A stretch of DNA of 64,000 bases, from positions 1,178,001 to 1,242,000 of the forward strand of contig NZ_CP032823.1 in assembly GCF_003660105.1 (NCBI RefSeq). The letters are read 5' to 3'. A program made the position numbers and the translations under genes. The stretch is from Aliarcobacter cryaerophilus ATCC 43158 (GTDB lineage Bacteria > Campylobacterota > Campylobacteria > Campylobacterales > Arcobacteraceae). Below are positions 1,007 through 14,555 of this stretch, piece by piece. Position 1 is the first letter of the stretch, and each line of letters begins with the position of its first letter. The notes below the pieces were generated by a model that worked only from the letters and a program-made list of their open reading frames with translations, did no database searches and was not told where the DNA came from.

Positions 1007-1999
1007 TTACATCCAACAAACACTCTCTAAATTGAAAAATACTTCTACTTTATCTCCTGGAAACAAAATATCTTTTTGAATCTCATATTTAGAGATTAAA
1101 CAAGAGAAATTAATACCACAAATAGAAAACTCTATTTGTAGATTATCTTGATTTTCATCTTTTTGGATTGATGTTATTGTTCCTATTAATTTATCTGTTT
1201 TATTATCTTTGTAGAATTTAGATATTTTTATACTATTTTGATTGATTATTACAACAGAATCTCTTTTTTTACTCTTTGAGTTAGGAATTACTATTTTCTG
1301 ACCATCAATAAAAAATTTAACTAAATCACCTTTTTCATTTTTACTCCATGGTGGAAATAGTAAATTTATATTTCCATGTTCAACTAAACTTCCTTGAAAA
1401 AGTGCTATCTTTTTATCACTTATATGTTTTAACCATGTGTAATCGTGACTTGAAATAAATATTGTAGTATTATATTTTTGCTTTGCCAATAAAATAGCAT
1501 CTTTGATTAATTGTGCTGAGTTTGTATCAACTCCAACTGTTGGCTCATCTAATATTAAAACTTTTGGTTTTAATATTAACCTTGAAGCCAAAGCAACTCT
1601 TTGAGCTTCACCACCTGATAGTTGATTCCATTTTCTATTTGAAAAATTACTATCAAGACCAACCAAAGATAAAGCCTCTTCAACTTTATTTTTTAAATCT
1701 ACTTTTTCTCCTCTTATTTTTAAACCATAAGCAATATTTTCAAATACTGTTCGTTTTAATAAATATGGATTTTGAGGAAGCATAACAACGCTTTTTTTAA
1801 TATTTTCATCTATTAAAATTTCACCTTTTTCTGGCTTACAAATAAAAGATAAAATAGAAAAAAGTGTAGATTTTCCACTACCATTTGGTCCAAAAAAACC
1901 AATAATTTTATTCTCTTCTAATATAAGATTATCAATACTTAAAACTCTTTTCCCATCGAAAAAATACTCAATATTTTTTAACTCGTATAAAATATTCAT
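1007..1999 (-). CDS. tupC: Tungstate ABC transporter ATP-binding protein TupC
   Basis: This is the ATPase subunit that powers oxyanion import with TupB. The Walker A motif GPNGSGKS is at residues 37-44. An LSGGEAQR signature follows near residue 132 and a VLILDEPT Walker B near 152. A roughly 90-residue C-terminal extension probably forms a TOBE-like regulatory domain, as in molybdate and tungstate ATPases. I chose the ATG at 1999: it overlaps the tupB stop as ATGA and has AAAGGAG at a proper distance. An upstream ATG at 2008 would abut that ribosome site. The assignment as tungstate rather than molybdate or sulfate rests on the neighbouring TupA. Confidence 0.88.
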   Translation of the reverse strand: MNILYELKNIEYFFDGKRVLSIDNLILEENKIIGFFGPNGSGKSTLFSILSFICKPEKGEILIDENIKKSVVMLPQNPYLLKRTVFENIAYGLKIRGEKVDLKNKVEEALSLVGLDSNFSNRKWNQLSGGEAQRVALASRLILKPKVLILDEPTVGVDTNSAQLIKDAILLAKQKYNTTIFISSHDYTWLKHISDKKIALFQGSLVEHGNINLLFPPWSKNEKGDLVKFFIDGQKIVIPNSKSKKRDSVVIINQNSIKISKFYKDNKTDKLIGTITSIQKDENQDNLQIEFSICGINFSCLISKYEIQKDILFPGDKVEVFFNLESVCWM

Positions 2000-2691
2000 T
2001 GAGTCCATCTCCTTTTTAGCATTGATAATGCTATATTAACCATAAGAGCAACTATAAAAAGTACCAAACCTAAAGCAATACCTGTTTCAAATTCACCTTT
2101 TCCAGTCTCTAGTGAAATTGCCGTTGTAATTGTTCTTGTATGATATTTTATATTTCCACCAACCATCATAGAAATTCCAATTTCAGTGATAATTCTTCCA
2201 TAAGCTGTCATTGCTGCTGTCATTAGACCAAATCTAGCTTCAACTAAAGTTGTTAATAAAATTTGATAAGGTTTTGCACCCAAACCTTTTAAAGATAGAT
2301 ATAACCTTTTATCTGTTGATTCAACTTGTGCTGCTGTTAATGCAATAATTATAGGTAAACCTAAAAAAATCTGACCTATAATTATCGCTTTTTGAGTAAA
2401 TAGTAGATTATACTCTCCAAAAGCTCCTGCTTGTGATAGAGTTGTATATACAAGAAGTCCTATTACAACGGTAGGAAATGCTAAAAATGTATCTACAATA
2501 GTTTTTATTACAGTTTTTCCTTTAAATTGATAATAACCTAGTAAAAATCCCAAAGGAAGACCTAATACTAAACTAATCAATATTGACCAAGAAGATACTG
2601 TAACAGTAACAATTATTGCAGAATATACACTATCATTTCCACTAATTAAAAGCTCAATAGCCTCTTTAAAACCATCTACTAATAAACTCAT
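1996..2691 (-). CDS. tupB: Tungstate ABC transporter permease TupB
   Basis: Integral inner-membrane permease of 231 residues with about five to six hydrophobic segments and a binding-protein-dependent transport inner-membrane loop. The conserved stretch is around 'EARFGLMTAAMTAYGRIITEIG'-like residues 150-172, where the EAA-type coupling helix contacts the ATPase. It fits the TupB/WtpB family in length. It lies between tupA and tupC and is translationally coupled to tupC by a four-base overlap. The ribosome site (TAGGAA) is rather distant from the ATG. Confidence 0.87.
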   Translation of the reverse strand: MSLLVDGFKEAIELLISGNDSVYSAIIVTVTVSSWSILISLVLGLPLGFLLGYYQFKGKTVIKTIVDTFLAFPTVVIGLLVYTTLSQAGAFGEYNLLFTQKAIIIGQIFLGLPIIIALTAAQVESTDKRLYLSLKGLGAKPYQILLTTLVEARFGLMTAAMTAYGRIITEIGISMMVGGNIKYHTRTITTAISLETGKGEFETGIALGLVLFIVALMVNIALSMLKRRWTQ

Positions 2692-2716
2692 ATTTTATTA
2701 CTATTTCCTATTTGTA

Positions 2717-3526
2717 TTATTTTGCATTTGGTGTGAATAGTGGTTTATTTAAAAGTTTAAAATCTCCTATAAACTTTTGTGTATCAGCACTAACTAGCCA
2801 ATCAGAGAATTTTTTTGCTAATTCTTCTTGAACTTTTGGACATCTATTTTTATTTACAGGAATAACACTATATTGATTAAATAGTGAATTGTCATTTTCA
2901 ACAACTATTTTCATTGTATTCGCATCACCTTTTTGTGACTCATATTTAATCCAAGTTCCTCTATCTGTTAATGTATACCCTTCTTTTTCAGCAGCCATAT
3001 TTAGTGTAATAATCATTCCTTGACCAGATTGAATATACCACTTATCTTTTTCAGGTGTTACATCACTAACATTTTTCCACATTTCTAGCTCTTTTTGATG
3101 AGTTCCTGATTTATCACCTCTACTAATAAAATTTGCTTGTTTATCTTTAATTGTTTTAAATGCTTCTTGAGTAGTTTTTCCTTCAAGTTTGGCTGGATCT
3201 TTTTTTGAACCAACAATAACAAAGTCATTATACATAACCTCTTTTCTATCAATACCAAAACCTTCATTTACAAACTTTTTTTCTGCTTCTGGAGCATGAA
3301 CCAAAAGTACATCAACATCACAATTTTCACCCATTTTTAAAGCTTTACCTGTTCCTGTTGATACCCATTTTAACTCTATTCCTGTATCTTTCTTAAATTT
3401 TGGAGCTAAAGTGTCTAATAATCCTGTATCTTCAGTACTTGTTGTTGTTGCCATCATTAAACTATTTGCAAATAATCCACTAGCTATTACTACACTAAAA
3501 CCTAAACCTGCTAATAATTTTTTCAT
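2717..3526 (-). CDS. tupA: Tungstate-binding periplasmic protein TupA
   Basis: A 269-residue exported solute-binding protein with a Sec signal peptide (residues 1-20, ending GLFA-NS). Immediately after cleavage it has the ATTTSTEDTGLLD stretch. The TTTS motif there is characteristic of TupA-type tungstate receptors and is thought to contact the oxyanion. A second conserved block is SRGDKSGTHQKE. An AGGAG ribosome site precedes the ATG. TupA family proteins bind tungstate far more tightly than molybdate, so the cluster is likely supplying tungsten to the formate dehydrogenase nearby. That link is inferred from gene order. Confidence 0.9.
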   Translation of the reverse strand: MKKLLAGLGFSVVIASGLFANSLMMATTTSTEDTGLLDTLAPKFKKDTGIELKWVSTGTGKALKMGENCDVDVLLVHAPEAEKKFVNEGFGIDRKEVMYNDFVIVGSKKDPAKLEGKTTQEAFKTIKDKQANFISRGDKSGTHQKELEMWKNVSDVTPEKDKWYIQSGQGMIITLNMAAEKEGYTLTDRGTWIKYESQKGDANTMKIVVENDNSLFNQYSVIPVNKNRCPKVQEELAKKFSDWLVSADTQKFIGDFKLLNKPLFTPNAK

Positions 3527-3542: not shown

Positions 3543-4790
3543 TTAATTTAAAATATCTGTAATCTCTTCAAAATAAATACCATTTAAATCAATAATTTTT
3601 ACATCTTGATTTGATTGTATATTTGAAGTAGAAGCATTTGTTACCAAAATTGAATTACTCTTATAAAAAGCGGTAATCATTCCAGAACCATAATTATTGT
3701 TATCTGTAACATAAAAATTACCATTTTGAACTCTTCCTAAAACTATATTTACCCTCCCTATTTTTGTTTTAAAACTACTTTGATTTATAGCTTTTATATA
3801 ACCATGATAAAAAGCATTTTCACCTTGAAGTTTTTTTAACATTGGTATTACAAAAAGGTTTATATTTACCATTGCTGTTAGTGGATTTCCAGGCATACAA
3901 ATAACCAAACTATTATCCATATTTCCCATCATCATAGGACGACCTGGTTTTATATTTACACCATGAAAAGCTACTTCTAATCCATTTTTTAAAAAAGCAT
4001 CAGCTACAAAATCAGCATCTCCCATAGAGATACCTCCACTTGTAATAATTACATCATATTTTTTTAAACTATTTATAAAATTTGTTGATTTTTCTAAATC
4101 ATCTGGAATAACACCACAATAAGTTGCATTAAAGCCTTTTTCATTTAATTGAGCAATAATTGCAAATGAGTTGCAGTTATATATCTCTTCATTTGAAGCT
4201 GTTTGCCATGGCTCTTTGAGTTCATTTCCAGTTGATAAAACAGCAATTGAAATTTGCTTATAAACTTCAACCATAACTATTCCTTGGCTTGCAAGTAAAG
4301 CAATATGAGAAGAGTTTATTTTCTCTCCTTTTTTTATTAAAACATCACTAACTTTTAACTCTTCAGCTTCTAATCTTAAGTTTGAACCTTTTTTTATATC
4401 ATCAGGTATTGTTGCACTATCTTGAGTTACATTTAAACAGTTTTCAATAGCAATAATAGTATCAGCATCTTTTGGTACCTTTGCTCCTGTCATTATTTTA
4501 TAACATTCATTTTCATTAAGTAATTCATCACTACTTTTATCTTTATCTCCAGCAAAAATAGCTCTTTTAATTTTTAAAGTTTTTCCAGCATCACTAACTT
4601 TAAAAGCAAATCCATCCATAGCAGAGTTATCAAAAGCTGGAAGATTTTTTACACATAAAATATCTTTACTAGCAACTTTATTTAATGAAAAAGCTATTGG
4701 AATAATTTCGCTATTTAAAGTTGTATTTGACAACTCAAAACTCTTTTTAATTGCTTCATTAAAATCTAAATAGTTTAATTTTTCAAACAT
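3543..4790 (-). CDS. moeA: Molybdopterin molybdenumtransferase MoeA
   Basis: MoeA inserts molybdate or tungstate into adenylylated molybdopterin, the last step of basic cofactor synthesis. The 415-residue length and motifs fit. The N-terminal part has the conserved LPAFDNSAMDGFA segment, residues 130-170 carry the beta-strand domain, and the central domain has TSGGISMGDADFV. The family motif PGRPMMMG is followed by a CMPGNPLTAMV stretch. An AAAGGA ribosome site lies upstream. It is cotranscribed with tupABC, 16 bases upstream of tupA, so a dedicated MoeA may serve tungsten loading here; a second moeA elsewhere in the genome cannot be excluded. Confidence 0.93.
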   Translation of the reverse strand: MFEKLNYLDFNEAIKKSFELSNTTLNSEIIPIAFSLNKVASKDILCVKNLPAFDNSAMDGFAFKVSDAGKTLKIKRAIFAGDKDKSSDELLNENECYKIMTGAKVPKDADTIIAIENCLNVTQDSATIPDDIKKGSNLRLEAEELKVSDVLIKKGEKINSSHIALLASQGIVMVEVYKQISIAVLSTGNELKEPWQTASNEEIYNCNSFAIIAQLNEKGFNATYCGVIPDDLEKSTNFINSLKKYDVIITSGGISMGDADFVADAFLKNGLEVAFHGVNIKPGRPMMMGNMDNSLVICMPGNPLTAMVNINLFVIPMLKKLQGENAFYHGYIKAINQSSFKTKIGRVNIVLGRVQNGNFYVTDNNNYGSGMITAFYKSNSILVTNASTSNIQSNQDVKIIDLNGIYFEEITDILN

Positions 4791-4792
4791 TT

Positions 4793-5782
4793 TTATCCTT
4801 TATTTAATACTTTTATTTGTAAATATCTTTTTGAAATGAGATTAATAATTTTATCTATTTCACTAATTGAATAGCTTTTTTCAAAACTAAGTGTTATTGC
4901 ATTTCTGCTAGTAAGCTCATCATAACCCATAGCTTGAATAACTCTTGAAGGTTTTGATAAACCTAAACTACACCCTTCACCATTTGATATTGAAATTTCA
5001 TCTAAAGCTAAAGTTCTTATTAACTCTCTTGCTTTTATATCTTTAAGTGCAAAATGAAGTGTATATTCTAAGCTATTTTTATTGTCAATAAAATAGTAAA
5101 GATTATCTTTTAAACTATCTTCTAATTTTGCTTTAAAAATCTCCTTCATACTATTTTCAAATTTTTGGTTTTTCAAAGATTGAAAAATATTATTTAGTGA
5201 AATTCCATCTTTTTCAAAAATAGCTTGTTCTTCAAATAAATTTTGATTAAAAAGTATTATTGCTTTTGTTGAAAAACCAGTTAGTTTATACGAATCAAAA
5301 TATATAGAATCACTATTTTTATCAAAAGATGCACTTGCGTTTGAGATAATTTTTGCATCTGTTATATGTTTTACATTTTCTAAACTATTTTTATAAAAAG
5401 TATCAACCGTATATGATGAGATAAACAAAAAATCTATATCTTTATCTTTTAATTTATCTAAATTAACACTTCCATTTTTATTTAATTCTAAATATAAAAT
5501 CTCAAATCCAAGATAGCAAAAAATTTCACAAGCATCTATTAAACTTTGAGTTTCACCAAGACTTACTGCAATTTTTCCTTTTTTATTTAGTTGAAGTAAT
5601 AAATATAAAAAACCACTCTTACAAAAAGAGAAATAGTTTAAATTTTCAAATACAAACTCTTTTTTGAAACTATCTTCTAAACTATTATAATCTTCATTAT
5701 TTGATAAAATATTCAAAGATAAACTATCTTTAATATGCAAGTTTTGCATATTTTTATACTGTAAAAAATTTAGTCTATACAC
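4793..5782 (-). CDS. Divergent cysteine desulfurase-like PLP protein
   Basis: A 329-residue class V aminotransferase-fold protein resembling NifS/IscS but shorter than the usual 380-400 residues. A candidate PLP lysine is K166 in FDSYKLTGFSTKAI. A candidate catalytic cysteine is C271 in NGEGCSLGLSKPSRVIQAMG, matching the SACxS...EPSHVL..LG region of desulfurases, followed by ITLSF. The usual VDxxQ motif reads SNASAS, so PLP contacts are altered. The start is GTG at 5782 with AAGGA nine bases upstream, two bases after the modE stop. Because FdhD passes sulfur from a desulfurase to formate dehydrogenase, a dedicated sulfur donor is plausible here. A non-desulfurase PLP enzyme remains possible. 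Confidence 0.65.
   Translation of the reverse strand: MYRLNFLQYKNMQNLHIKDSLSLNILSNNEDYNSLEDSFKKEFVFENLNYFSFCKSGFLYLLLQLNKKGKIAVSLGETQSLIDACEIFCYLGFEILYLELNKNGSVNLDKLKDKDIDFLFISSYTVDTFYKNSLENVKHITDAKIISNASASFDKNSDSIYFDSYKLTGFSTKAIILFNQNLFEEQAIFEKDGISLNNIFQSLKNQKFENSMKEIFKAKLEDSLKDNLYYFIDNKNSLEYTLHFALKDIKARELIRTLALDEISISNGEGCSLGLSKPSRVIQAMGYDELTSRNAITLSFEKSYSISEIDKIINLISKRYLQIKVLNKG
5732..5752. promoter_or_regulatory. Palindrome AATATGCAA-N3-TTGCATATT inside the desulfurase-like gene
   Basis: Nine-base perfect inverted arms around three bases, within the first 20 codons of the desulfurase-like gene (it encodes MQNLHI on the minus strand). It is the same sequence, apart from the centre, as the intergenic palindrome at 7349-7369. 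The repetition 1.6 kb apart in one operon suggests a binding site for one regulator; the ModE-like protein encoded just upstream is a candidate. No binding data can be inferred from sequence. Confidence 0.5.
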
Positions 5783-5784
5783 TT

Positions 5785-6147
5785 TTACTTATCCTTTATT
5801 TTTATTAAGTTTTCACTTAAAAAAAGTTCATTAAATCTCTTTTTTGAGTACTCTTTTATATCTTTTTCTAAAATTTCATAAAGCTCTATTAACTCTTTTG
5901 CTTTAGTAGTTAATTGTGAACCACTATCAACAGCCCTTCCTTTTTTTGTAACAACTAAACTATCTTCAATAAACTCTTCAAGGATTTTTATATGACTCCA
6001 CGTTTTTTTATAGTTCATATTTAAATTTTTTGAAGCATCACTAATTGAACCTGTTTTTTCAATCTCTTTTAAAATCTCTGTTTTTCCACTTCCAAAAATA
6101 AGATTTTGCTTATTATCTTCAATCCAAATTTTAACTTTGATTTCCAC
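5785..6147 (-). CDS. modE: ModE-like winged-helix regulator without metal-binding domain
   Basis: A 120-residue protein matching the N-terminal DNA-binding domain of ModE. The helix-turn-helix is in GSISDASKNLNMNYKKTWSHIKILEEF-like residues 32-58 and a wing follows (LVVTKKGRAVDSGSQLT). E. coli ModE is about 260 residues, with a di-TOBE/MOP molybdate-binding half; that half is absent here. Metal sensing, if any, must therefore involve a partner or a different mechanism. The start is GTG at 6147 with AAAGGGC upstream, overlapping the preceding gene by 17 bases. It probably controls this FDH/Tup operon. Confidence 0.82.
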   Translation of the reverse strand: MEIKVKIWIEDNKQNLIFGSGKTEILKEIEKTGSISDASKNLNMNYKKTWSHIKILEEFIEDSLVVTKKGRAVDSGSQLTTKAKELIELYEILEKDIKEYSKKRFNELFLSENLIKIKDK

Positions 6148-6556
6148 TTTTAAGCCCTTTTTTTTCTCTAAAACATCCTAGTTGGCAATAACTTACTTCA
6201 ATATCAGAGTTTTTAAGAGTTGATCCAACTACTCTTAAAGATGAACTCTTTGCCTCTTGCCACAAATTTTTACAAGGAATTCTTTGCTCTTTATAACTCT
6301 TTTTTAATCTATTATAAATCACTTCATCTTTAGCTAAAAAATCTAAAGAGCCAAATACTCCAAGCTCACAATCTGTTATTTTAACGCCTAAAGATTTTGT
6401 AATTGCACTCATATCTTTAGCTTGAACTTTCATCTTTTTGGCTACTTTAAATGCTTTTAAACAAGATAGTTTTTTATTATCATCAAGATTTTCAAAAACT
6501 ATCTTTCTTTGCTCATCACTTAAAATAAATTCAAAATTATCGTCAATACTAGACAT
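6131..6556 (-). CDS. Unrecognised protein with two Cys-rich repeats (C..AK..CxLGxF)
   Basis: A 141-residue soluble protein that I cannot assign to a family. It contains two similar units of about 35 residues. The first has C32, AK seven residues later, and C63-ELGVF; the second has C95, AK seven residues later, and C124-QLGCF. A fifth cysteine is C128. The duplicated cysteines suggest metal, cluster or sulfur binding, or a paired HTH-like fold. The ATG at 6556 has GGAAG five bases upstream and overlaps fdhD by eight bases; a GTG at 6568 is the alternative start. Its place between fdhD and modE implies a role in FDH maturation or regulation, which is inference. Confidence 0.7.
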   Translation of the reverse strand: MSSIDDNFEFILSDEQRKIVFENLDDNKKLSCLKAFKVAKKMKVQAKDMSAITKSLGVKITDCELGVFGSLDFLAKDEVIYNRLKKSYKEQRIPCKNLWQEAKSSSLRVVGSTLKNSDIEVSYCQLGCFREKKGLKSGNQS

Positions 6557-7337
6557 CAATTCTTCCACTGTGAGTATAAAGATTCATCTTTTTACCTCTT
6601 GCAAATCCAATAAGTGTAAGACCGTGCTTATGTGCTGTTTGAACTCCTAAATGAGTTGGTGCTGTTCTTGATACAACTATTGGGATTTTGTGCATCACAG
6701 CCTTTGTAACCATCTCAGAACTTAATCTTCCACTTACAAACAAAATTGATTTTGTTGTATCAAGACCTTGCAGTTTACACTTTCCAATTGCTTTATCAAT
6801 AGCATTGTGTCTTCCTATATCTTCAGCCGTTACAGTTGTTCCATCAAGTAGATAAATCATAGCTTTATGAACACAACCTGTTAAGTTATAAAGTTCACTC
6901 TCTTGATAAAACTTTTTTACTTCAGTATAAATAGTTTCTGGTTTTATTTTAAAAGCAGTTTGATTAAATGGAATTTCTAAACTTCCTTCAATATTTCCAG
7001 TAACTCCTCCACCACAACCACTTACTAAAGTCTTCTCTTTATATAAATTTTGTAGTGAGTTTTCATCTATTTTTGCTTTTACATCTACTCTTAATCCATC
7101 AGAACTAACTGTTAACTCTTCTATGTCAGCAATAGAAGAGATTACATTTTCACTCATTAAAAAACCAATTGCATGAGCATCTTGGTCTTTTGGGATTGTC
7201 ATCATAGATATAGCTTTTTCTCCGTTTAAATAAAGGTTTAGACGCGCTTCTTCAATTGTCACGTCTTCAACCATATTGGCTTCATTTTCTATAAGTTTGT
7301 CAATAATTACTGTTTTTAAATATTTGCTATTATCCAT
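6549..7337 (-). CDS. fdhD: Formate dehydrogenase sulfurtransferase FdhD
   Basis: FdhD transfers sulfur from a cysteine desulfurase to the metal cofactor of formate dehydrogenase. The 262-residue length and core motifs fit: LTGCVHKAM, AEDIGRHNAIDKAIG, FVSGRLSSEMVTKA and VVSRTAPTHLGVQTA. In E. coli FdhD the sulfur-relay loop has a CxxC pair; here the loop reads SGCGGG, with C108 alone. An additional cysteine lies in the TGCVH motif. RBS AAGGAAAA precedes the ATG, and the 7349-7369 palindrome sits directly upstream, so this is probably the first gene of the fdhD-to-tupC transcript. Confidence 0.92.
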   Translation of the reverse strand: MDNSKYLKTVIIDKLIENEANMVEDVTIEEARLNLYLNGEKAISMMTIPKDQDAHAIGFLMSENVISSIADIEELTVSSDGLRVDVKAKIDENSLQNLYKEKTLVSGCGGGVTGNIEGSLEIPFNQTAFKIKPETIYTEVKKFYQESELYNLTGCVHKAMIYLLDGTTVTAEDIGRHNAIDKAIGKCKLQGLDTTKSILFVSGRLSSEMVTKAVMHKIPIVVSRTAPTHLGVQTAHKHGLTLIGFARGKKMNLYTHSGRIDV

Positions 7338-7408: not shown

Positions 7409-8374
7409 CTATCTTTTTAATAAATCTTTATCTTCTTCTAATACATCAGCTCTTAGTTGTTCTAAGTACTCAATTGGTAATTTCCCAGTTATCACTCCAG
7501 GAATATAACCTTTTACTGAAACAAAGTATGAATATACTGTTTCAAATGTAAAGAACGAAATAATTGCACTACCCATAAAATGGATAAATAGAATAAATCT
7601 TTTTATCTGTATTGTTTGAGCATGTGTTGCTGCATCTGGAAACATAAACCAGATTGTAAAACCACTTAATACAAGTAAAAACCCAAAAGCAACATACATA
7701 TAGTAGTTGATTCTATTCATAGGTTCATATTTTCCTCTTAAAAAGAATTTATGCCATATTTTAGAACTAGGTCTTACAAAGTATTTATGATCTTTAAATG
7801 CAATAACTGTAACAATAAACCAAACTGGAATCCAAGCAACACCAACAACTTCATGTGTAGCTCTCATAAGTCTAGGAAGATATCCTCCACCTGTCCAGTT
7901 TCCAAATGTTATTGAAAAACCAGTTATAAACAGATAAATCATAATTACAATATTTAATAAAAGAACAACTCTTTGAAAAAGTGAATAAACTTGCACTTTC
8001 TCATTTTCTCTTGTAATTTTAGCTTGTTTTCTACCTTTTGCAACAATAAACATTATTGTAAATAGACAAAATTCAAATAAAAAAACCCAAGGAAGAAGAT
8101 GTTGTCTCTCTTCAAATGCTCTTATAACTTCAGGAGCAATTGCATCATATCTAGGTCCAAAAAGACCTACTTCCATCTGTTGATATTGTGTTAAAGTATC
8201 AAAAGGTACAATTTGTCCAGTAAAATTTCCTTTTAACATTTGCATTAAAAATTGGTAAACATAGTTTATATCAGCTATTGAGGCCAACCAAAAATACCAA
8301 TATGTTAAAAGCATGAACAAAAAGCCTACTATTACGTAAGCTTTATATTCACTTAGAAAACTTTTATTTTCCAT
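7409..8374 (-). CDS. fdhC: Formate dehydrogenase cytochrome b subunit (gamma)
   Basis: The membrane di-haem cytochrome b subunit that passes electrons from the FdhAB dimer to menaquinone. Starting at the ATG at 8374 it has 321 residues (MENKSFLSEYKAY). Four or more hydrophobic helices include LLNIVIMIYLFITGFSITFG, RATHEVVGVAWIPVWF and FILFIHFMGSAIISFFTFE, with histidines in helices placed as in FdnI/FdhC haem ligands. An in-frame start at 8419 would overlap fdhB by 56 bases; the 8374 start overlaps by 11 and agrees better with the family. It is the last gene of the structural fdh operon. Confidence 0.9.
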   Translation of the reverse strand: MENKSFLSEYKAYVIVGFLFMLLTYWYFWLASIADINYVYQFLMQMLKGNFTGQIVPFDTLTQYQQMEVGLFGPRYDAIAPEVIRAFEERQHLLPWVFLFEFCLFTIMFIVAKGRKQAKITRENEKVQVYSLFQRVVLLLNIVIMIYLFITGFSITFGNWTGGGYLPRLMRATHEVVGVAWIPVWFIVTVIAFKDHKYFVRPSSKIWHKFFLRGKYEPMNRINYYMYVAFGFLLVLSGFTIWFMFPDAATHAQTIQIKRFILFIHFMGSAIISFFTFETVYSYFVSVKGYIPGVITGKLPIEYLEQLRADVLEEDKDLLKR

Positions 8375-8978
8375 AAGCTTTATCCCAACCAAATGGTGCT
8401 GATTGAGTTCCATGACCAAAAGATAAAACTCTTTGTCTATATATATTTGCTATAGATTCAGCATCTCCAACAAGTAGAGCTTTTGTTGAACACATAGCAG
8501 CACATACAGGAACTTTACCTTCAGCTATTCTATTTTGACCATATAGTTCTCTTTCATGTTCACTATTTGTATCTTCAGGACCACCAGCACACATAGTACA
8601 TTTATCCATAACACCTTTTGTACCAAAAGCTCCATTACTAGGAAATTGTGGTGCTCCAAAAGGACAAGCATATAAGCAGTATGAACAACCTATACATTTG
8701 TTTTTATCATGTAAAACGATACCATCTTCTCTAATGTAGAAACAATCAACTGGACAAACCTGTTCACAAGGTGCATCTGTACAATGCATACAAGCAACAG
8801 ATAATGAAAACTCCATTCCTTGTTTACCTTCATTTACAGTAACAACTTTTCTTCTACTAATCTCAACTGGTAACTCATGTGCTGAGGCACAAGCAACTGA
8901 ACAACCATCACAATGAATACATCTATTTTCATCACAATAGAATTTCATTCTTGCAAAATTTATTTTATTATTACTCAT
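8364..8978 (-). CDS. fdhB: Formate dehydrogenase iron-sulfur subunit (beta)
   Basis: A 204-residue ferredoxin-like electron-transfer subunit with cysteine clusters for four [4Fe-4S] centres: CIHCDGCSVAC, CMHCTDAPCEQVCPVDC, CIGCSYCLYACPFG and CTMC...CAAMC. It links the FdhA active site to the cytochrome b subunit on the periplasmic face. There is no signal peptide, as expected for a partner exported by hitch-hiking on Tat-targeted FdhA. The ribosome site AGGAG lies seven bases upstream of the ATG, ten bases after fdhA. Confidence 0.95.
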   Translation of the reverse strand: MSNNKINFARMKFYCDENRCIHCDGCSVACASAHELPVEISRRKVVTVNEGKQGMEFSLSVACMHCTDAPCEQVCPVDCFYIREDGIVLHDKNKCIGCSYCLYACPFGAPQFPSNGAFGTKGVMDKCTMCAGGPEDTNSEHERELYGQNRIAEGKVPVCAAMCSTKALLVGDAESIANIYRQRVLSFGHGTQSAPFGWDKAYGK

Positions 8979-8988
8979 GTTACTTCTC

Positions 8989-11811
8989 CTAAGCTCTTTC
9001 TACTCTACATAAACCACCTTTTGTTTCAGGGATTTGTGTAACTATGTCATAACCGTAGTTAGTAACTGTATTTGCACTTTCACCTATTGCATAAGGTAGC
9101 GTTCCAGTTGGATATCTATGGCTTAAATCAACACCTTCCATAATTCCAGCAAAGTGGAATGGTAGGAATACTCTATCAGGTGTAACAGAGTAAGAGTATT
9201 TTGCTTTAACTTTGATTTTCGTTCCATTTGGTGAATGAATCCACATCATAGAACCATCTCTAATACCATTTCTTCCTGCTAAATCTGGATTAATATCACA
9301 GAACATTTCAGGTGTTAATCTAGCTAAATATTTACTAGCTCTATTTTCAACACCAGCACCATTTAAATTTACTAATCTTCCAGTTACAAGATTTGTTGGG
9401 AAATCTTTTGCCCAATCTTGTTTTGTCTGTTCACTAATATATCTAGTATCAACTCTCCAGTGATCTTTTTTATCTGCAAAGCTTGGATAATCTTTAATTA
9501 AATCCGTTCTTGGAGTATGTAAAGGCTCTCTATGTTTTGGAATTGGATCAGCCCATTGCCAAACTTTTGCTCTTGCTTTTGCATTTCCATAAGGAGCAAT
9601 TCCAGCTTCGAGGCATTTTTCAACTATTAAGTTAGATTTATCAACTTTCCAGTTTGCACCCATTTTTGCTTTTTCATCTTCACTTAAAGTAATTTTTAAA
9701 ACAGCCTCAATATTCTCTTTTGTAATTTCAGGATATCCACCATCTTGAACTCCACCAACAGGTGCAGAACCTTTAGGCGACAACAATGAAACTCCCTCAT
9801 GCTCTAAACCAAAGTTTTGTCTAAATCCCATACCACCAAATTTAACTGGTTTTGTAATATCATAAAGATTTGGGCTTCCTGAGTGTTTTTCTGTCCAACA
9901 AGGCCATGGTAAACCATAGTATTCTCCAGCCATATCACCATAACCAGCTAGTGAAATCTCATCAAACATATGCCAATTGTCAGTATGTTTTTTAAGTCTT
10001 TCTGCTCTCCATCCAGTTAATCCAATAGTTTTAATAATTCTAGCTATCTCATTTGTTGCATCTTCTGGCCAAACAAAATCTTTACCTTTTTGCATTCCAG
10101 CAGTTAATTGCTCATAAAATCCTAATCTTTTTGCTAATTCAAACATGATTTCTTGATCAGGTTTTGATTCATACATAGGTTTTACAACTTCATATCTCCA
10201 TTGACCACTTCTATTCGTTGCAGTTACAGATCCAGCTGTTTCAAACTGAGTTGCTGCTGGTAAAATATAAACATCGTTTTGTTTATCAGTAATAATTGCA
10301 CCCTCATTTACAAATGGGTCACAAAATACTGCTAATTCTAACTTATCTAAAGCTTCTTTTACTTTTTTTGTTTGTGCAGTTGAAGTAATTCCATTACCCA
10401 TTACAAAAAGTGCTTTTAGATTAGTTCCAGCATTATGAATAGCATCTTCACCTTCCTGTCCAGCTAAAACTCCAGCCCACCAACGTGCAAGTGTAAATCC
10501 ATTTTTACCCATCCAAGAAGGATCTTTAAATCTTCCTTTAAGCCAATCAAAATCAACTCCCCAAGAAGAAGCAAAATATTTCCATGAACCTTCAGCTAAA
10601 CCATAATATCCTGGAAGTGAATCTGATAAACAACCAAAGTCTGTTGCACCTTGAACATTATCATGACCTCTTAAAATATTAGTTCCACCACCAGCAACTC
10701 CCATATTTCCAAGAGCCAATTGTAAAATTGGTGCCATTCTTGTATTTGAAGTTCCTATTGTATGTTGAGTTAATCCCATAGCCCATACCAAAGTTCCAGG
10801 TTTTGATGCTGCATAAAGTTTTGTAATTTGAACTATTAAATCAGCTTTAACTCCTGTTACATCAGCAACTCTTTCAATTGGCCAATTTTTAGCCTCTGCC
10901 ATAATATCTTCCATACCATAAACTCTATCATTAATAAAGTTTTTGTCATGCCAACCATTTTCAAAAATGATATTTAACATTCCATACATAAATGGAATAT
11001 CAGTACCTGGTCTAATTTGTGCATATAAATCTGCTTTTGCAGCAGTTTTAGTAAATCTTGGATCTACTACAATAATCTTTGCATTGTTTCTCTCTTTAGC
11101 TTTTAAAAAGTGTTGGAAACCAACTGGGTGATTAACCGCTGGATTTGCTCCAAAAATTATAATTGCTTTAGAGTTTTGAATATCTCCCAAAGAATTTGTC
11201 ATAGCACCATAACCCCATGTATTTGCCACACCGGCAACTGTTGAGCTATGTCAAATTCTAGCTTGATGATCTATATTGTTTGTTCCAAACATAGCAGCAA
11301 ATTTTCTATAGTAATATGCTTGCTCGTTATTAAATTTTGCTGATCCTAAAAACATTGCTGAATCAGGTCCATCTTTTTGTCTTAAATCTTCAAGTTTTGA
11401 TGCAATATTATTTAAAGCGTCATCCCATGAAATTCTTTGCCATTGACCATTTTTCTTAACCATTGGATATTTTAATCTAACCTCAGATTTAACCATATCA
11501 ATCATATCGGCACCTTTACAACAATGCCCTCCAAGTGATACAGGATGATCTTGTGCTACCTCTTGTCTTACCCACACACCATTTTGAACTTCTGCAATAA
11601 CACCACAACCAACTGAACATGCTGTACAAATTGTTTTTACAATTTTCGAACCAGGAAAAGGATTTTTAATCTCTTCTTGCGTTGCTGCTCTAGTTGCTAC
11701 TGTACTTGCAAAAGATGATGTAACTCCAAATGCTGTAGAAACTGCTGCCATTTTTAAAAACGACCGTCTTCCTACTTTTGCATTTAAAGCTTCATATGTA
11801 TTTGCTGACAT
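8989..11811 (-). CDS. fdhA: Selenocysteine formate dehydrogenase catalytic subunit FdhA (UGA read-through)
   Basis: The catalytic subunit oxidises formate to CO2 at a bis-molybdopterin Mo or W centre. The reading frame is interrupted only by TGA at 11251-11253, codon 187, in the context RI-U-HSSTVA. This aligns with the selenocysteine position of E. coli FdnG (RV-U-HGPTVA). The full product is 940 residues. It has a Tat signal (GRRSFLK, residues 14-20) and [4Fe-4S] ligands C62, C65 and C69 with C97 or C98. MGN-domain motifs include GANPAVNHPVGF and a C-terminal molydopterin dinucleotide-binding domain. An AGGAG site precedes the ATG. A SECIS-like hairpin follows the UGA. This is not a broken gene. 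Confidence 0.95.
11223..11253 (-). promoter_or_regulatory. Bacterial SECIS-like hairpin and in-frame Sec UGA in fdhA
   Basis: On the minus strand, TGA at 11253-11251 is followed after 13 bases by TTGCC-GGTGT-GGCAA, a five-pair stem with a GGU-containing loop. In E. coli fdhF the GGU of the SECIS apical loop also begins 18 bases after the UGA, so loop position and sequence both agree with SelB recognition. Lower-stem pairing is weaker and was judged only by eye. Confidence 0.8.
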
Positions 11812-11829
11812 AAGCTTCTCCTACTAAAT

Positions 11830-12042
11830 TTATTTTGCGTTTTTATAAAACTCTTCCCAAGCCATAGTTTTTTTGTATAGAATCTCTTTTTTATTAGATT
11901 TTCCAACAATAACACCATTGTTTGAATCATCTTGAACAGATGTTTCACCATTTCCAGCCAATACAACAGTACCAGTTGTAACAACTGCAGCAGCTGTGAT
12001 AATTGCTGCTTTTTTTGCAAAAGCTCTTCTGCTTTCTTGCAC
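11830..12042 (-). CDS. Small twin-arginine protein of the formate dehydrogenase region
   Basis: A 70-residue protein starting at GTG (12042) with a near-perfect AAGGAGG ribosome site six bases upstream. It begins QESRRAFAKKAAIITAAAVV, a twin-arginine type signal/anchor, followed by a short polar tail ending EEFYKNAK. Proteins of this size and position are a recognised family next to formate dehydrogenase genes ('formate dehydrogenase region TAT target'). The molecular role is unknown; assembly or membrane retention of the enzyme is a guess. It lies 18 bases upstream of fdhA. Confidence 0.85.
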   Translation of the reverse strand: MQESRRAFAKKAAIITAAAVVTTGTVVLAGNGETSVQDDSNNGVIVGKSNKKEILYKKTMAWEEFYKNAK

Positions 12043-12069
12043 GACTGACCTCCTTATAGAAATTAAGCC

Positions 12070-12144
12070 CCTCTAAACTTAAGAGACTTTATAAAAAAAG
12101 CTTAACTTTTTTTATAAAATCCCTAAAAAGGTATTCCTTTTTAG
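12070..12144 (-). promoter_or_regulatory. Three consecutive hairpins between the TorD-type gene and the fdh structural genes
   Basis: In transcription order: CTAAAAAGG/CCTTTTTAG with a four-base loop (12123-12144, overlapping the stop codon); a perfect 13-bp stem TTTATAAAAAAAG/CTTTTTTTATAAA with a five-base loop (12088-12118); and CTCT/AGAG (12070-12084). None is followed by a clean long U-tract on the minus strand. They could be an attenuator or RNA-processing block that separates low chaperone expression from high FdhA expression. Confidence 0.55.
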
Positions 12145-12869
12145 TTTTTAGGACCTAAAGCTTTTAGTGCTTTATTTTTAGCTCTTCTTTCTCTTTCTTC
12201 AGCAGATATATCGCCCCAGTTATCAGTTACTTGTTTTTTAGCTTTATCTTTTTTTACTGGTTTTGTAACCTCTAAATATAATCTTTCAAACTCAATAAAT
12301 GAGTGTAAAACAACCATAAGTTCTTTATAAATATTTGCTTTTTTATGCTCATAAATTCTTCTTGCAAACTCATCTACAAAAGGATTTAAAATCTGTTCAA
12401 AAATACAATGAACAGTATTTTCATACTGTTTTTCTCCAAGAGCAATTGAATTAGACAATTCAGACATTATTGAAAATATGAAACCAACAGAATCTTCATA
12501 TTCAAAATATTTTTTTTCATCACGTCTAAGCCTTGTTTTTGCAACAAATTGAATCATCTCTACTCTTTTTTTACCAGATTCAACACCCTCATCATAAAAA
12601 GAAGCTGTTTGTCTAACTTTTTCATAAACAGGATTATGAAAAATATCATCATACTCTTGTATTAAAGATTGATTTGAATCTTTATCTAGAAGATTTAAAA
12701 TATTTTTGATAGACTCTTCAGAAGCTTCATCCAAAGAGCTATCTTTTAAAAGATTTAAAAGTCTAAAAAGTTCAAAATAGTTTTTTATATCTGAACTTGG
12801 AACAAAAAAGTTTGCAAATAAGTTGTAATATATTGCTCTAGCCTTATTTATAGATTGTGTATCTTGCAT
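12141..12869 (-). CDS. TorD/DmsD-family chaperone for formate dehydrogenase
   Basis: A 242-residue, all-helical cytoplasmic protein. The stretch QEYDDIFHNPVYEKVRQTASFYDEGVESGKKR resembles the conserved core of TorD-family chaperones, which hold molybdoenzyme precursors and their Tat signals until cofactor insertion is complete. The C-terminus is lysine-rich (KPVKKDKAKKQ). It lies between the polyferredoxin and the FdhA genes, so FdhA is the likely client. A typical AAGGA ribosome site precedes the ATG. Confidence 0.82.
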   Translation of the reverse strand: MQDTQSINKARAIYYNLFANFFVPSSDIKNYFELFRLLNLLKDSSLDEASEESIKNILNLLDKDSNQSLIQEYDDIFHNPVYEKVRQTASFYDEGVESGKKRVEMIQFVAKTRLRRDEKKYFEYEDSVGFIFSIMSELSNSIALGEKQYENTVHCIFEQILNPFVDEFARRIYEHKKANIYKELMVVLHSFIEFERLYLEVTKPVKKDKAKKQVTDNWGDISAEERERRAKNKALKALGPKN

Positions 12870-12878
12870 TTTTTATCC

Positions 12879-14555
12879 TTATTTTCTATTATCAAAATAG
12901 TTTTGCATCATAATTTTAGGCTTACAATTAGCACAACAATACAAACTTCTTACTTTTACAGGATCACTTGCAAAAATTGTTGCCATTTTAGAAGCAATTT
13001 TTTCTATTGCTTTTGTTGTTGCAAATTCAACTCCACACTCAACACATGCAAAAAGTTTATCTTGAGCTAAAACACTCTCTTTAAACCAAGTTGGTTTTAG
13101 TTCAATTACATCTTGTTTTATTGTTAAGCAATTTGCTTCAGGACAAGACATTTCACAATATCCACATGCTGTACAAATACTTGGATTAATTCTTAAAGTA
13201 TTATCACTAGCATCAGCAACTAAAGCTCCAACATTACAAGCACCTACACAAACTAGGCACAAAGTACATGTATCTTGATTTACTTCAACTTTTGCGTAAT
13301 GAATATGTTCTCCTGTTTTAATCTCTCCTAAATCATCATTTCCAACAATCTTTTGAAGTCTATGAGAAAAAACTTCTCTTTTTTTGAAGCCATCTTGATT
13401 GAAGTTAAAATAAGAGTTTTCCACAAAAGATACTTCTTTTAAAGCCAAAGCTAATTCATCTTCATTCATAGCAATTAAGACAGCATCTTTTTGGTATTTT
13501 TTTTGATATATATCATTTAATATTCTAATAGCATCTTTTGTACCTTTTGACAAAAAATCACTATAAAAAATAACTTGAGAACTCGATATTTGAAGTAAAG
13601 TTAGAAGTGTTCCTTCATGTAAGAATTTTTCACCTTCAATTGCAAAAGGCAAGATGTTTTCTTTAAGATTTATATTTAGATTTTCCAAAGACATTTTTGA
13701 AGGAATAATTAAAGGGTGTGTTTCTTTATAAAACTTTGATATTTCATAAAGTGAGTCTTTATTTGTAGGAGTATAATCTATTGCTCCACTTGGGCAAACA
13801 CTTACACATCCACCACAACCGTGACAATCTACTTGAGAGAAAGTTAAAGTTTTTGTTGTATCATCTTTTGTAATAGCAACAGTTGGGCAAACTTCTTCAC
13901 ACTTACTACAAACTACTTCTCTTCTTCCATCATATTGACAAATAGTTTTATCATAAGTTGTAAATTTTCTATATGAGAATGAGTTTAAATTATCTTTTAA
14001 TATTTTAACTACTTCATCTATGCTACTTAAGTTTGGGTCAAAAACTCCAATTCTCTCTTTTGGAGATGGTTTTGCATCAAACCAAACTATTTGAGAAACT
14101 CTTAAAGTTATATCTTTATGACTATCTTTTACTATTACTTCAAAGTTTCCAATTTCACCACTTATAGTTTTTAAAATAGTTTCATCTATTCTAAACAGTT
14201 CAAAATCATCTTTAGATATTTGTGAAGTAAAACTATCATATTCCTCTTGGTTTTTAGTAATTAACAAAACCTCTTTTGAAATATCAACACTATGTGAAAT
14301 ATCTTGTGCAAAATCAAATCTTGTAGCATTTATCTCATATAGTTTTAAAACATTTTCGATTTTTCTTGATAAGTCATCTTGTGAATTTTTAATATAAAAA
14401 TCTATCTCATTTGCAATAAATTCACTATTTACATCTTTTGAATTCGATATTAAAAAGCTTTTACCCTCAATATCATCTAAACTAGTAGTTACATGGATCT
14501 TTTCACTTAAAGGGAAATCCAACCCTTCTTTATTATGGTATATATACTCTTGCAT
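12879..14555 (-). CDS. FDH-associated polyferredoxin with C-terminal CxxC pairs
   Basis: A 558-residue cytoplasmic protein, first gene of the fdh operon. The N-terminal half (1-210) has no recognised motif. Near residue 220 is CSKCEEVCP followed by CHGCGGCVSVCP, a two-cluster ferredoxin module. A second module, CTLCLVCVGAC and CTACGYCEMSCPEANC, lies near residues 425-480. The C-terminus has CVECG and CCANC pairs, like a zinc or cluster site. At least four [4Fe-4S] clusters are expected. Related proteins occur beside Campylobacterota formate dehydrogenase genes; electron donation in maturation is possible, but the exact role is unknown. Confidence 0.8.
   Translation of the reverse strand: MQEYIYHNKEGLDFPLSEKIHVTTSLDDIEGKSFLISNSKDVNSEFIANEIDFYIKNSQDDLSRKIENVLKLYEINATRFDFAQDISHSVDISKEVLLITKNQEEYDSFTSQISKDDFELFRIDETILKTISGEIGNFEVIVKDSHKDITLRVSQIVWFDAKPSPKERIGVFDPNLSSIDEVVKILKDNLNSFSYRKFTTYDKTICQYDGRREVVCSKCEEVCPTVAITKDDTTKTLTFSQVDCHGCGGCVSVCPSGAIDYTPTNKDSLYEISKFYKETHPLIIPSKMSLENLNINLKENILPFAIEGEKFLHEGTLLTLLQISSSQVIFYSDFLSKGTKDAIRILNDIYQKKYQKDAVLIAMNEDELALALKEVSFVENSYFNFNQDGFKKREVFSHRLQKIVGNDDLGEIKTGEHIHYAKVEVNQDTCTLCLVCVGACNVGALVADASDNTLRINPSICTACGYCEMSCPEANCLTIKQDVIELKPTWFKESVLAQDKLFACVECGVEFATTKAIEKIASKMATIFASDPVKVRSLYCCANCKPKIMMQNYFDNRK

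Follow-up and report, generated by a model that had tools for sequence, protein, structure and literature searches.

A four-cysteine protein of the Aliarcobacter cryaerophilus formate dehydrogenase cluster as the putative split-off half of a campylobacterial ModE

Main finding

X is a small protein encoded between fdhD and modE in the formate dehydrogenase (FDH) cluster of a 64,000-nucleotide stretch of Aliarcobacter cryaerophilus ATCC 43158 DNA (hereafter the window). It consists of two cysteine-containing units, and in other Campylobacterota the same domain is fused to the N-terminus of the ModE helix-turn-helix domain (HTH). We propose, with a probability of about 60%, that X corresponds to the N-terminal half of a ModE of the Campylobacter jejuni Cj1507c type, encoded here by a gene of its own, that its four-cysteine site reports the supply of Mo/W cofactor or sulfur, and that it is needed for FDH biogenesis. 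The X/modE pair is best filed as the split-gene form of campylobacterial ModE and not as a new kind of system, the cysteine-containing half being the undescribed part.

Gene X and its neighbourhood

The X ORF runs on the minus strand from an ATG at 6556 to a stop at 6131-6133, and an alternative in-frame GTG start at 6568 would add 4 residues. The location between fdhD and modE given in the earlier note was confirmed, and X overlaps both ORFs, its end sharing 17 nt with the start of modE (6147). The cluster reads, along the minus strand, ferredoxin-like protein, TorD-like chaperone, fdhA, fdhB, fdhC, fdhD, X, modE, NifS-like gene, moeA and tupABC (Table 1). TupA was named by the scan with an E-value of 3e-112, slightly below the curated cut-off, and tupB and tupC were assigned from their position and ORF sequence. 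Because an in-frame TGA (11251-11253) interrupts fdhA within the context HQARI-U-HSST, its product is most likely a selenocysteine enzyme, as read from the sequence. Upstream of fdhA, a 70-aa protein with a TAT leader (11830-12042, minus strand) recurs in many of the phylum's FDH clusters. At the X/modE junction there is an A8-G3 tract (6160-6172, minus strand), and a slip there would fuse the two frames.

Table 1. Features of the FDH cluster in the window. The codon of X residue n begins at 6556-3(n-1).
Feature	Position	Strand	Description
FDH structural and maturation genes	7409..14555	-	fdhC, fdhB, fdhA, TAT-leader small protein, TorD-like chaperone, ferredoxin-like protein
fdhD	6549..7337	-	directly upstream of X; 8-nt overlap
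X	6131..6556	-	141-aa protein; two ~50-residue units, two invariant Cys each (C32/C63, C95/C124)
X unit 1	6347..6502	-	residues ~19-70; LSC...A...DCELGVFG
X unit 2	6161..6310	-	residues ~83-132; IPC...A...YCQLGCF
HTH-only ModE (120 aa)	5785..6147	-	TIGR00637 E 6e-20; HTH_1 above cut-off
NifS-like protein	4793..5782	-	divergent, PLP-fold; downstream of modE
moeA	3543..4790	-	family scans
tupA-tupB-tupC	1007..3526	-	tungstate transporter genes

Two homologous units with four invariant cysteines

X had been described in the earlier note as two similar 35-residue units with cysteines in register and an Ala-Lys pair at +7 after the first cysteine of each. The register of C32/C63 with C95/C124 stands, but the repeat spans about 50 residues rather than 35. 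Comparison of unit 1 with unit 2 by hhalign, using profiles from 24 relatives, yielded a probability of 98.2% and a score of 63.4, against 9.4 ± 2.3 with a maximum of 20.7 for column-shuffled controls (n = 200). With the single window sequence, the observed repeat score was reached by 3 of 2000 shuffles. At the level of these profiles, the repeat was confirmed as more than chance and the units as homologous.

The four cysteines are conserved. Among 38 representatives chosen at <80% identity, C32 and C63 are both present in 38/38, and C95 and C124 both in 37/38; in the two copies that deviate, the second unit has decayed. No homologue among those compared has lost one cysteine with its units otherwise intact. 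In 24 diverse members the invariant residues are C32, C63, C95, C124, G66, F68, G69, G127 and F129, and a fifth cysteine after C124, C128, is found in 32/38 representatives. The Ala-Lys pair is present in the window, but only its alanine is conserved among the representatives (A39 in 32/38, A102 in 34/38), the lysine not being conserved. X evolves faster than most neighbouring genes, and its dN/dS of 0.23-0.42 indicates purifying selection.

Family and structure searches

Scans of X against Pfam and NCBIfam returned no family, a Pfam scan of 24 relatives gave no FdhD, IscS, TusA or rhodanese family, and a profile search of the PDB found no sequence relative (best E 0.096). No match to a known unrelated family emerged from these searches; the domain is undescribed and stands in neither Pfam nor NCBIfam. 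An AlphaFold2 model of X, run together with three near-identical relatives, reached a mean pLDDT of 50, and no cysteine site is visible in this low-confidence model.

Within that model, unit 1 is predicted as strand-helix-turn-helix-strand, and profile searches gave marginal matches to a homeodomain, the RacA HTH and IF2_N, all of them weak. Both observations would suit a tandem HTH-like module for nucleic-acid binding or dimerisation, with structural zinc on the cysteines, which would only shape the DNA binding of ModE and have no part in sensing or maturation. However, unit 2 folded alone (pLDDT 70) adopted a topology unlike that of unit 1, and Foldseek and VIA-align searches with the weak model found no usable fold match. 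In addition, X also stands beside fdhD where any HTH is missing, and a purely DNA-shaping role does not account for the FDH phenotype of C. jejuni modE, both described below. We consider such a module quite improbable.

X and ModE as one protein in other Campylobacterota

Campylobacter, Sulfurospirillum-like and other Campylobacterota encode the X domain and the ModE HTH in a single ORF of ~240-270 aa, joined in frame with X at the N-terminus and the HTH at the C-terminus. In the Arcobacteraceae window they are two overlapping ORFs in the same order. Because the gene order equals the domain order of the fused relatives, the window pair is, on sequence grounds, a split version of this known architecture. 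In an unrooted tree of the HTH domains, the fused HTHs group into one clade (support 99/94) and the Arcobacteraceae HTHs are all separate; one fusion or one fission suffices. X and the ModE HTH group, which was delimited at a break in the E-values from 1e-24 to 4e-21, occur together in 96 of 249 Campylobacterota genomes, X without the HTH in 4 and the HTH without X in 6, counts that include related genomes and so overstate independence.

The HTH of the partner ORF scores 71 bits against TIGR00637 (curated cut-off 98.5), and Pfam and NCBIfam scans found no TOBE/Mop domain in the X or modE ORF, nor in the fused relatives. X had been suggested as the missing sensor of this truncated ModE. The identity of the missing part is upheld by the N-terminal fusion to the same HTH and by the co-occurrence, while sensing itself is what we infer. 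Classical ModE of the E. coli type, an HTH with a C-terminal molybdate-binding Mop/TOBE domain, shares the winged-helix HTH with the window partner ORF. In contrast, the extra domain of the window pair is N-terminal, contains cysteines and is unrelated in sequence.

Could the window genes nevertheless be expressed as one? Relative to X, modE is read in the +1 frame, which is open from the A8 tract before the X stop (GAAAAAAAAGGG) onward, and a product of ribosomal frameshifting or transcript slippage at this tract would resemble the fused proteins. However, interruptions of the A tract are seen in relatives both near and far (loci L004, L006, L016 and L018), the +1 frame of L006 is closed by a stop after the tract and before the modE ATG, and in most split loci the modE ATG lies inside the end of X, as coupled reinitiation predicts. 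A single gene joined by slippage is therefore extremely improbable, and it was rejected as the tract is not conserved in relatives.

The fused protein can be placed in C. jejuni. Campylobacter loci L122-L131 have the order fdhA-fdhB-fdhC-fdhD-(X-HTH), followed in most by a 700-aa methyl-accepting chemotaxis protein, YedF and SelD, and cj1507c has fdhD upstream and tlp1 (Tlp1) downstream (PMC7011364). Because the order fdhD-(X-HTH)-chemotaxis protein matches fdhD-cj1507c-tlp1, the fused protein is, by synteny and domain order in the Campylobacter loci, C. jejuni ModE, Cj1507c. It resembles the window pair in both domains, in domain order and in its position directly after fdhD, but it is one fused protein where the window has two overlapping genes; this comparison runs through the syntenic Campylobacter loci and not through the record of Cj1507c itself.

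C. jejuni ModE is described, in the passage of PMC7011364 that cites Taveirne 2009, as a repressor of the molybdate and tungstate transporters that has a protein-protein binding site instead of a metal-binding domain. Deletion of modE in C. jejuni abolished FDH activity and the gene restored it, a phenotype that points to functions beyond repression (PMC11237541). As given in PMC11237541 and in that passage of PMC7011364, the FDH requirement and the mod/tup repression are known for C. jejuni and not for the window organism.

Distribution of X with and without FdhD, FdhA and the HTH

The searches for X covered Campylobacterota and a sample of one other phylum. X was found in 100/249 Campylobacterota genomes by profile search, and a genome search placed it in 68/101 Arcobacteraceae genomes. 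In the 299-genome sample of the other phylum it was present in 0/298 genomes besides G336, a Pseudomonadaceae-labelled MAG in which the contig with X resembles Aliarcobacter contamination. None was found in viral contigs and plasmids. A contig labelled as an uncultured Pseudomonadaceae MAG (L032, CANRHT010000253.1) carries an Aliarcobacter FDH cluster and probably reflects bin contamination.

The earlier note had offered X as an undescribed partner of FdhD, an idea at which the distribution no more than hints. Of the 63 Arcobacteraceae genomes that carry both genes, 62 have X immediately behind fdhD, including some in which the HTH is missing, but X is absent from 45 of 127 FdhD-positive Campylobacterota genomes. 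FdhD is generally held to be necessary for FDH. Sixteen Campylobacter genomes nevertheless keep FdhA and the X-HTH fusion while lacking FdhD, PF02634 having no match anywhere in these genomes. The FDH genes of these 16 genomes (among them loci L072, L115, L116 and L117) are interrupted in frame at the selenocysteine position, with X-ModE present.

The two halves also occur apart. Second FDH operons with the order fdhD-X-NifS-like gene lack the HTH (L059-L061, L065 and L068), L088 has fdhD-X alone, and G267 retains fdhD-X with the HTH absent. Three Campylobacteraceae genomes (G240, G305 and G311) keep the HTH with neither X nor FdhD, although FdhA is still present elsewhere in G311. In G187 a broken fdhD goes together with a truncated X, whereas in G181 the fusion is intact though FdhD is reduced there to its last 19 residues. 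These cases, namely fdhD-X without the HTH, the HTH without X and FdhD, the joint decay in G187 and the fusions without FdhD, indicate that the X and HTH halves have partly separate jobs. An HTH-only ModE directly after fdhD with X absent is found at L101 (G260), L135 and L136; at L101 the NifS-like gene and moeA come next, giving the same cluster minus X.

A paralogue subfamily of X with all four cysteines lies away from FDH genes (L064, L066, L067, L071, L080, L082, L084 and L087). In many Arcobacteraceae it is flanked by an MMPL/Mla-type cluster on one side and by a HAD hydrolase or aminotransferase gene on the other, and the neighbours seen are MMPL/MlaA/MlaC-type genes together with a HAD hydrolase. 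Because these four-cysteine copies sit away from FDH genes, they show that the cysteine site has a use beyond FDH, and the tie of X to FDH genes claimed earlier holds only in part. X also cannot be only a ModE subunit, since it persists outside the ModE context in both the second FDH operons and the unlinked paralogues. X tracks the combination of FDH with this ModE, and is strictly neither a ModE subunit nor an FdhD partner.

This distribution bears on a different division of labour, in which X would primarily be an FDH maturation factor acting with FdhD, for example as a cysteine-based sulfur or cofactor relay or a scaffold, and its joining to ModE would be a secondary feedback from maturation to uptake. 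The near-constant fdhD-X adjacency in Arcobacteraceae, the second operons without the HTH, the loss of X in the three Campylobacteraceae genomes without FdhD, the abolished FDH activity of the C. jejuni modE deletion and the presence of FdhA in 96/100 X genomes would all be consistent with it. FdhD-positive genomes outside Arcobacteraceae, moreover, have either X or the NifS-like gene and hardly both. However, the either-or pattern follows clades and thus reflects few events, and the NifS-like matches in families without X are weak, and most of them lie away from fdhD. The FdhD-positive genomes without X, the Campylobacter genomes with FdhA and X but no FdhD, and the unlinked paralogues also argue against this role, which we regard as rather unlikely.

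Proposed role of X

Returning to X as the split-off half of ModE, we propose the following mechanism. The X half would stand where other ModE proteins have their molybdate-binding domain, N-terminally instead of C-terminally. Together, the four invariant cysteines, two from each unit of the repeat, probably make up a single site holding a metal, a cluster, a (thio)oxyanion or a persulfide. This site would report the supply of Mo/W cofactor or sulfur, and X would steer ModE in cis or in trans. In Arcobacteraceae, X would be a protein of its own, its ORF coupled to fdhD and the HTH-only ModE, and it would act in trans with that HTH. In addition, X would be needed for FDH biogenesis. Binding of X to ModE, the cysteine site as the sensor and the location of the FDH phenotype in the X half are parts of this mechanism that we infer.

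A bolder version is unlikely in our judgement: that X is a Campylobacterota-centred four-cysteine, two-unit module that matures FDH, with or in place of FdhD, and through the metal or sulfur it holds tells ModE to stop Mo/W uptake, whether in cis or in trans to the repressor.

Under the split-ModE reading, two puzzles of C. jejuni ModE, its action without a metal-binding domain and the loss of FDH on its deletion, are placed on one four-cysteine domain. We propose that the unexplained FDH function and the unexplained sensing of Cj1507c both belong to the X half. The X domain is a stand-alone protein in Arcobacteraceae and in the HTH-less second FDH operons; therefore the two functions would be genetically separable, half by half, and the published modE puzzle becomes a simple question of half-gene deletion.

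Sulfurtransferase-type chaperones such as FdhD/FdsC work with an IscS partner (PMC6239281). FdhD is encoded in the same operon as X, and cysteine chemistry of X is plausible, but the sequence of X is unrelated to those of FdhD, IscS and TusA/YedF.

Variants of FdhD and the NifS-like protein

In an alignment of the window FdhD and its relatives, Campylobacterota FdhD lacks the CxxC of E. coli and has SGCG with one cysteine, or SGCC, in its place; the type of this motif bears no relation to the presence of X. The NifS/IscS-like protein keeps the loop cysteine (NGEGCSLGLSKPSR) and an aligned lysine, and the alignment gives no equivalents of the His and Asp of the IscS PLP site. Its gene adjoins fdhD in several X-less genomes (L103 and L109-L111). 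The NifS-like protein may be a dedicated, possibly inactive, relative in a sulfur relay.
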